Source: Bimastos eiseni
Taxonomy: Eukaryota; Annelida; Clitellata; Crassiclitellata; Lumbricidae
Direction of reading: 5' to 3'
DNA: 64,000 nucleotides
NCBI GenBank assembly: GCA_959347315.1
Contig: OY365810.1
Location: forward strand, 3,824,967 to 3,888,966
A program made the position numbers and the translations under genes. This document shows, piece by piece, positions 1 through 7,539 of the stretch. Numbering within the stretch: position 1 is the first letter of the stretch; each line of letters begins with the position of its first letter. Below the pieces are notes generated by a model. That model was not told where the DNA came from, searched no databases, and saw only the letters and a program-made list of their open reading frames with translations.

Positions 1-3000
1 TCAGTTCCAGCTCCAGCTCCCGGTCAATCAGCCTCATCCCCAGGTTATTCAGCCCCTGCTCCAGGTCAGTCAGCCACCTCTCCAGAACAATCAACCCCAG
101 CTCCAAGTGAGTCAGCCCCAGTCCCAGGTGACCCAACTCCAGGTCAGTCTGCCCCAGCTCCAGGTCAATCAGCCCCAGTCTCGGGTCAATCAGCCCCAGC
201 TCCAGGTCAGTCAGCCCCATCCCCAGGTCAGTCTGTCTCTGCTACAGGTAAGTCGGCATCAGCTCCAGGTCATTCTGCCCCAGCTTCAGGTCAGTCAGCC
301 CCAGCTCCAGGTCAATCAGAACCAGCTCTAGGTAAGTCAGCTTCAGATCCAGGTCAATCAGCCCCAGTCTCAGGGCAGTCAGCCCCAGCGCCAGGTCAGT
401 CTGTCTCTGCTCCAGGTCACTCGCCATCAGCTCCAGGTCAATCTGCCCCAGCTTCAGGTCAGTCAGCCCCAGCACCGGGTGACTATGCCCCAGCTCCAGG
501 TCAATCAGAACCAGCTCCAGGTCAGTCAGCTTCAGCTCCAGGTCAATCAGCCCCAGCTCCAGGTCAGTCAGCCCCAGCTCCAGGTCAATCAGAACCAGCT
601 CCAGGTCAGTCAGCTTCAGCTCCAGGTCAATCAGCCCCAGCTCCAGGTCAGTCAGCCCCAGGTCACTCTGTCTCTGCTCCAGGTCAGTCGGCATCAGCTC
701 CAGGTCAGTCAGCTTCAGCTCCAGGTCAATCAGCCCCAGCTCCAGGTCAGTCAGCCCCAGCTCCAGGTCAATCAGAACCAGCTCCAGGTCAGTCAGCTTC
801 AGCTCCAGGTCAATCAGCCCCAGCTCCAGGTCAGTCAGCCCCAGGTCACTCTGTCTCTGCTCCAGGTCAGTCGGCATCAGCTCCAGGTCAGTCAGCTTCA
901 GCTCCAGGTCAATCAGCCCCAGACTCAGGTCAATCAGTCCCAGCTCCAGTTCAGTCAGCCCCAGGTCAGTCTGTCTCTGCTCCAGGTCAGTCGGAATCAG
1001 CTCCAGGTCATTCTGCCCCAGCTTCAGGTCAGTCAGCCCCAGCTCCGGGTGACTATGCCCCAGCTCCAGGTCGATCAGCTCCAGCTCCAGGTCAATCATC
1101 CTCAGTTCCAGGTCAATCAGCTTCAGCGCCAGCTCCAGGTCAATCAGCCCCAGTTGCCGGTCATTCAGCCCCAGCTCCAGGTCAGTCAGCCCCAGCCTCC
1201 GGTCAATCAGCCACAGCTCCTGGTCAGTCTGCCTCTGCTCCAGGCCAGTCACCATCAGCGCCTGGTCATTCTGCCCCAGCTTTAGGTCAGTCAGCCCCAG
1301 CTCCTGGTCAGGATGCCCCAGCTCCAGGTCAGTCAGCTTCAGCTCCAGGTCAATCAGCTCCAGTCTCGGGTCAGTCAGCCCCAGCGCCAGGTCAGTCTGT
1401 CTCTCCTCCAGGTCAGTCGCCATCAGCTCCAGGTCAATCTGGCCCAGCTTCAGGTCAGTCAGCTCCAGCTCCGGGTCAGTATGCCCCAGCTCCAGGTCAA
1501 TCAGAACCAGCTCCAGGTCAGTCAGCTTCAGCTCCAGGTCAATCAGCCCCAGTCTCAGGTCAATCAGCCCCAGCACCAGGTCAGCCAGCCCTAGCCCCAG
1601 GTCAGTCTGTCTCTGCCACAGGTCAGTCTGTCTCTGCTCCAGGTCAGTCGGCATCAGCTCCAGGTCATTCTGCCCCAGCTTCAGGTCAGTCAGCCCCAGC
1701 TCCGGGTGACTATGCCTCAGCTCCAGGTCGATCAGCTCCAGCTCCAGGTCAATCAGTCCCAGCTTCAGGTCAATCAGCCTCCGCTCCAGGTCAATCAGCC
1801 CCAGTTGCTGGTCATTCAGCCCCAGCTCCTGGTCAGTCAGCCCCAGCTCCCGGTCAATCAGCCCCAGCTCCTGGTCAGTCAGCATCAGCGCCTGGTCATT
1901 CTGCCCCGGCTCCAGTTCAGGATACCCCAGCTCCAGGTCAATCAGAACCAGCTCCAGGTCTGTCAGCTTCAGCTCCAGCTATAGGTCAATCAGCCCCAGT
2001 CTCAGGTCAATCAGCCCCAGCTCCAGGACAGTCTGCCTTTGCTCCAGGTCAGTCGGCATCAGCGCCAGGTCATTCTGCCCCAACTTCAGGTCAGTCTGCC
2101 CCTGCTCCAGGTCAGTCAGAACCAGCTCCAGGTCTGTCAGCTTCAGCTCCAGCTATAGGTCAATCAGCCCCAGTCTCAGGTCAATCAGCCCCAGCTCCAG
2201 GACAGTCTGCCTTTGCTCCAGGTCAGTCGGCATCAGCGCCAGGTCATTCTGCCCCAACTTCAGGTCAGTCTGCCCCTGCTCCAGGTCAGTCAGAACCAGC
2301 TTCAGGTCTGTCAGCTTCAGCACCAGCTACAGGTCAATCAGCCCCAGACTCAGGTCAATCAGCCCCAGCTCCAGATCAGTCTGCCCCTGCTCAAGGTCCA
2401 TCAGCCCCGGCTCCAGGTCAGTTAGCTCCAGCTCCGGGTCAATCAGCTCCAGCTTCAGCTGAATCAGCTTCAGCTCCAGGACAGTCGGCCCTAGATCCAG
2501 GTCAGTCGGCATCATCTCCAGGTCATTCTGCCACAGGTCCAGGTCAGTCAGCTCCAGTTCCAGGTCAGTCAGCCCCTACTCCAGGTCGACCAGCCCCAGC
2601 TCCAGGTCAATCGGTTCCTGCTCGAGGTAAACCGGCCCCTCCTCGAGGTCATTCGGCCCCAGTTGCTGGTCAGCCAGCTCAAGCTCCAGGTCAATCAGCA
2701 CCACCTCGTGGTCAGGCAACCCCAGCTCCAGGTCAATCAGTTCCAGCTCCAGGTCAATCATCCCCAGCTCACGGTCAATCAGTCCCAACTCCAGATCAGT
2801 CAGCTTCAGCTCCAGCTCTAGGTCAATCAGCCCCAGTTGAAGGTCAATCAACCCCAGCTCCAGGTCAATTAGCGCCAGCTCCAGGTCAGTCTGCCTTTGC
2901 CCCAGGTCAGTCGGCATCAGCTCCAGGTCATTCTGCCCCAGCTTCAGGTCAGTCAGCCCCAGCTCCTGGTCAGGATGCCCCAGCTTCAGGTCAATCATCC

Positions 3001-7539: not shown

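Follow-up and report, generated by a model that had tools for sequence, protein, structure and literature searches.

What does an uninterrupted frame of 2512 codons, built on a seven-residue repeat with the consensus GQSAPAP, encode, if it encodes anything at all? The frame opens the window, by which we mean the whole 64,000-nucleotide stretch of DNA analyzed here (contig positions 3824967-3888966 of an assembly of 660 Mb in 118 contigs). We also examined 40 kb to its left, where the window numbering is continued leftwards through 0 (position in L009 = 10000 + window number). The first-pass annotation had described a frame free of stop and Met codons that runs in register into a unique C-terminus, and this description holds: window 1-7539 (+) is a single open frame with no internal stop and no Met, terminated by TAG. 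The repeat keeps its phase throughout. Among the 323 intervals between unit starts, 280 are heptads and the remaining 43 have other whole-codon lengths; all 311 CAGGTCA-type anchors (at most one mismatch) share one codon phase, and all 310 spacings between them are divisible by 3.

The frame might also be no gene at all, but non-coding satellite DNA with a 21-base unit that is free of stops by chance. The commonest unit in fact contains no stop whichever forward frame is read, which makes nearly stop-free frames easy to obtain, and over window 1-7236 the other five frames contain 12, 22, 232, 43 and 308 stops, with only 12 in frame +2 and 22 in +3 (308 in -3). To separate a fortunate unit from a constrained one, we compared 145 distinct heptad DNA units with their consensus, which gave 504 differences; distinct units were used because the copying of blocks within the array leaves its units non-independent, a problem that this choice reduces. 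Third positions account for 294 of these differences (223.8 expected), which answers the objection that variation might be equal at the three codon positions, and 279 (55%) are synonymous, against 202.6 (sd 8.4) under random placement, where the highest value in 2000 trials was 232. Not one difference creates a stop, where 23.7 were expected. The third-position excess is thus real but moderate: the coding constraint claimed from first inspection is borne out, while the description of the variation as "mostly" synonymous is true only as a bare majority. The comparison of synonymous and non-synonymous differences between heptads, also proposed at that stage, agrees, with a pairwise pN/pS of 0.46 in frame and 1.06-1.52 in frames +2, +3, -1 and -2. 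This ratio is insufficient alone, because antisense frame -3 gives 0.43 and yet holds 308 stops. The excess of synonymous differences, the lack of stops and of any out-of-phase spacing, and two further results described below (the unbroken continuation of the frame into a predicted CBM_14 domain and the constraint in a second, adjacent array) make the satellite explanation barely credible.

The array was thought to begin before the window, and it does, 810 bases to the left (L009 position 9191, a boundary that we set). In the same contig the same frame stays open leftwards for 1025 more codons, up to a splice acceptor, and the gene contains no N; exon 2 starts at window -3067, after a TTACAG acceptor. 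The best candidate for a first exon lies at window -5088 (MKNVLIQ, donor G|GTGAGA) and, joined to exon 2, yields MKNVLIQVLFGICLAYTVTA, a signal-peptide-like sequence. It was the sole candidate meeting our criteria in 15 kb, the criteria having been set after the candidate was seen; a candidate appeared within 2.1 kb in 3.75% of 400 Markov controls and within 15 kb in 30.5% of 200 whole 15-kb controls. We therefore regard a separate first exon that completes the signal peptide as probable rather than proven. With it, the protein, whose length the first-pass annotation had left unspecified, would come to 3542 residues, a value that stands provided the predicted exon is correct, and the window frame represents the back 71% of this reconstruction (Table 1).

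Table 1. Parts of the repeat gene and its protein, and the two flanking genes. Boundaries of protein parts were set by us; charges are net values at pH 7.
Feature	Window position	Strand	Residues	Remarks
Upstream paralogue, 279-codon frame	-10909 to -10070 (L010:9091-9930)	same strand		about 5 kb upstream; head, short TDPEEPRYN-type repeat, poly-Asp end
Predicted signal peptide			1-20	first residues from predicted exon
CBM_14 domain (predicted)			32-84
Linker			85-155
PTS array of 22-residue units			156-760	charge -12
Heptad array, whole			761-3451	charge of residues 761-2200, -7
Heptad array, part in window (consensus GQSAPAP)	1..7263	+	1031-3451
Arginine-richer last part of heptad array	3511..7263	+	2201-3451	cut at 2201 set by us; charge about +55
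Unique C-terminal tail, 91 residues	7264..7536	+	3452-3542	Ser/Thr-rich stretch, then Asp/Glu-rich end; charge about -21
Stop codon TAG	7537..7539	+
Possible polyadenylation signal AATAAA	7927..7932	+		388 bases past stop; from sequence only; two ATTAAA further on
Citrin/aralar (SLC25A12/13) gene	12619-28362	-		about 16 tblastn segments in order, some weak

The continuation upstream changes the identity of the gene. Judged by itself, the window frame (2512 residues) matches no Pfam family at E≤0.1, and the protein had accordingly been described as lacking a recognizable family. That description was wrong: the frame continues through an array rich in proline, threonine and serine (PTS) into a predicted CBM_14 domain, and the family went unrecognized because the left edge of the window falls within the gene, a caution that such an edge can hide a family. 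Scanned alone, the domain scores 27.8 bits against Pfam CBM_14 (PF01607; cut-off 22.1) over profile positions 1-53 of 53; inside the 1025-residue stretch it scores 21.1 bits, slightly below the cut-off. The CBM_14 or peritrophin-A domain has a core pattern of six cysteines, and all six are present in the head (C32, 46, 52, 63, 77 and 84, assigned by inspection and from the Pfam match), with extra cysteines at 22, 28, 43 and 87. A sequence search of the PDB with the head returned five rows at E≤1, comprising one CBM14 protein (4z4a, E 5.4e-5), three of chitotriosidase-1 (among them 6so0, E 3.7e-4) and one giardin; we judged the giardin match (3chj, E 5.8e-4) to be unrelated. In the corresponding phmmer search with the window frame, both rows returned (7o23, E 1.5e-17; 3s6l, E 1.5e-4) point to trimeric autotransporter adhesins (BpaC, Hep_Hag), an identity that we rejected, since there is no Pfam match and the similarity appears compositional.

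Between the head and the heptads lie 605 residues of PTS array, with 47.6% Ser+Thr, 14.5% Pro and no Cys. Its unit has 22 residues, most commonly TSTTQQPASTPTPSSVQSASDS, and 19 units pass a strict pattern, 14 of them distinct. The pN/pS of this array is 0.31 in frame, against 0.95 and 1.70 in the other two forward frames. Coding constraint is thus seen again in an array that shares the reading frame of the heptads but differs from them in sequence. A zone of mixed units (...STTQQPGTTSTPAPGQSAPAKGES...) separates the two arrays and suggests an origin of the heptads within the PTS array. A single open frame runs from the predicted CBM_14 domain through the 22-residue PTS array and the GQSAPAP array to an acidic tail, and both arrays are constrained.

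Is such a protein a mucin? The first-pass annotation had suggested a mucin-like matrix component, and the mucin-type PTS array and the predicted chitin-binding head favor this in part. By the criteria of Syed et al. 2008 (PMC2515642), however, the PTS repeats are too short a share of the protein: 605 of 3542 residues, or 17% with the heptad array not counted, which is less than the one third required of a mucin. Whole-protein Ser+Thr is 24.6% of 3542 residues, below their 25% criterion and above the looser 20%; three proteins with low Ser+Thr content were also classed in that study. We therefore use "mucin-related" rather than "mucin". The nearest known design is found in the same work, among the Drosophila mucins and mucin-related proteins that combine peritrophin-A domains with long PTS tandem repeats: 9 of the 23 proteins characterized carry such domains, and mucin-like proteins there range from 300 to 23000 residues. 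The protein described here differs in its small PTS share, in consisting mostly of the GQSAPAP array (Ser+Thr 19.3%), in its poly-Asp end and in its phylum.

Taken together, these features make it quite probable that the window frame encodes the C-terminal portion of a secreted matrix protein that is related to mucins, anchored to chitin and extended by a long disordered spacer. Such a protein would most likely belong to a slime, lining or bristle that contains chitin. An orphan repeat thus becomes a testable matrix protein. The spacer would be the heptad array itself: its 2691 residues comprise 23.6% Ala, 22.0% Pro, 17.2% Ser, 13.5% Gly and 12.3% Gln, with no Cys and 12 Tyr. AlphaFold2, run on the single sequence of the last 200 residues, gave a mean pLDDT of 51.6, which is consistent with disorder and is a weak test without an alignment. 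The long disordered repetitive chain envisaged at first inspection is accordingly probable.

The same composition raises the question of whether the heptads form an elastomer like elastin or resilin, tethered to chitin. Like these proteins the array is a Pro/Gly-rich repeat, and the disorder and hydration of self-assembled elastomeric proteins have been ascribed to a high Pro+Gly content (PMC5703643); the low pLDDT would also allow disorder here. The motif, however, is a different one, the window frame has no family match, and the few Tyr and absent Cys leave little to cross-link; moreover, the two parts of the array are hydrophilic (mean hydropathy -0.56 and -0.74), unlike elastin. We consider an elastomer improbable. 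The adhesive or elastic role envisaged at first inspection likewise gained no specific support from the tests made here.

The distribution of charge along the chain is uneven (Table 1). Arginine counts in the heptad array increase from residue 2261 on (43 of the 307 heptads in the complete array have R as their last residue), so that a nearly neutral first part is followed by a strongly positive last part and then by the negative tail. These features suggest how the chitin-anchored, mucin-related protein might work. The predicted CBM_14 head would bind chitin fibrils; the PTS array, if O-glycosylated, would form a stiff hydrated brush; and the Cys-free heptad chain, rich in Pro and Gly, would serve as a long soluble spacer. 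Through their opposite charges, the last part of the array and the tail could bind each other, neighboring chains, or calcium and acidic mucins, and we propose that this may join the chains into a gel at the chitin surface. A charge-segregated GQSAPAP chain of this length, with almost no cross-linking residues, may be of interest for the design of protein gels.

Does the acidic tail have relatives elsewhere? A search with the C-terminal tail, which had been recommended as a check, was run in a set of 5.8 billion proteins, and the conserved tail that had been hoped for was not found: no relative appeared at E≤10 among 1539 and 655 candidates. This absence is limited evidence, because only candidates close to the query in length and with exact words in common could be recovered. 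The set does include annelids, since Capitella, Lamellibrachia, Dimorphilus and Owenia are among the matches listed (best 120 of 4129) in a search with the neighboring citrin/aralar protein. The predicted architecture is so far documented for this genome only. Within the genome, DNA of the tail region has at least 73 matches (40 of 213 candidates scored); the 72 besides its own locus are confined to query positions 204-305, the Asp-rich part, and we judged them to be simple repeats rather than relatives.

A second gene was found nearby. When 304 kb around the gene was searched by tblastn, one further strong head was recovered, at window -10801, with 67% identity over 67 residues, the remaining head rows having E≥0.6. 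This head scores 29.8 bits as CBM_14, and it belongs to the upstream paralogue of Table 1, whose splice acceptor by our reading lies in the same codon phase; a search for the paralogue's first exon gave no convincing candidate. The tails of the two genes align with a score of 100. Shuffling the whole tail equals this score in 3 of 1000 trials, but shuffling within the non-acidic and acidic parts separately equals it in 311 of 1000, and the non-acidic parts alone align no better than chance (134 of 1000). Homology of the tails is therefore not supported: the likeness does not go beyond composition, and what the genes share is a layout with an acidic end. With its head kept and its middle replaced, the pair exemplifies how repeats turn over in extracellular proteins.

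The paralogue bears directly on another explanation, that of a hard-part protein of a bristle, tube or calcareous secretion: the CBM_14 domain would attach to chitin, the poly-Asp tail would bind calcium or mineral, and the repeats would be flexible filler. That both genes end in poly-Asp although their repeats differ speaks for it, and precedents exist. Calcium binding has been attributed to the acidic repeats of mollusc shell matrix proteins, whose disordered low-complexity repeats evolve fast and are sometimes joined to old domains (reviewed in PMC4897951), and the tube proteome of the annelid Paraescarpia echinospica contains chitin-binding peritrophin-A proteins (PMC8476170). The two tails, however, are alike in composition only, and most of the protein, a neutral-to-positive chain with a mucin-type array, is no less compatible with a hydrated layer. 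A role in hard parts is thus possible but somewhat unlikely.

Shell matrix proteins, as reviewed, resemble the present protein in their disordered repeats, the old domains sometimes attached to them, fast repeat change and acidic repeats; the present protein differs in its predicted chitin-binding head and its mucin array, and no shell is known to be involved. The Paraescarpia tube proteins (ChtBD2), compared by description only, have the same type of domain and likely come from the same phylum, and mucin-like proteins are also expressed in the tube-making collar; unlike the protein here, they are not described as having long arrays in the available part of that report. In the literature, the letters of the heptad motif gave no match, and no title among the matches listed concerned the combination of CBM_14, PTS array, GQSAPAP array and acidic tail, or an annelid chitin-bound mucin; among the matches listed for earthworm peritrophic chitin nothing useful appeared, and the accessible portion of a study of Osedax bristle formation (PMC11149249) mentions neither peritrophin nor mucin. 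A broader proposal can be framed on the mucin-related reading: an annelid family of chitin-anchored block polymers may exist, in which the CBM_14 head and poly-Asp end are kept, the low-complexity middle is exchangeable, and pairing of charges between the arginine-rich part and the tail makes a mucin-type brush condense onto chitin. We put this forward as a doubtful conjecture.

The neighborhood of the gene is informative about its source. The next gene downstream, between the repeat gene and Evx, is citrin/aralar, and a tree of 22 rows places it likely in an annelid. It groups first with a near relative of 93% identity over the tree columns (85% in the sequence search); two JGI rows join next, forming a four-row group with support 100/99, followed by Capitella, Lamellibrachia and Dimorphilus. 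The wider annelid group has support 90/90, below the starred level, and Owenia falls outside it, with nemerteans. Evx, an even-skipped homeobox gene, is present as two pieces at 59303-59896 (-) and 63853-63999 (-) and seems to leave the right end of the window. With human EVX1 as tblastn query, the pieces give E 6.9e-15 and 1.4e-12; the Pfam Homeodomain score of the first piece is 17.3 bits, below the cut-off of 22.9. Between these pieces, a 292-codon frame at 60784-61662 (+) begins in Asn/Asp runs and has no Pfam match at E≤0.1; its later part resembles a retroelement end. The window also contains a tRNA-Ser (anticodon AGA) at 56105-56186 (+) and two further tandem arrays, a TCCA run of 93 copies at 22337-22708 and a 14-base repeat, TTCCAGGACCATGG, present in 14.2 copies at 23541-23737.
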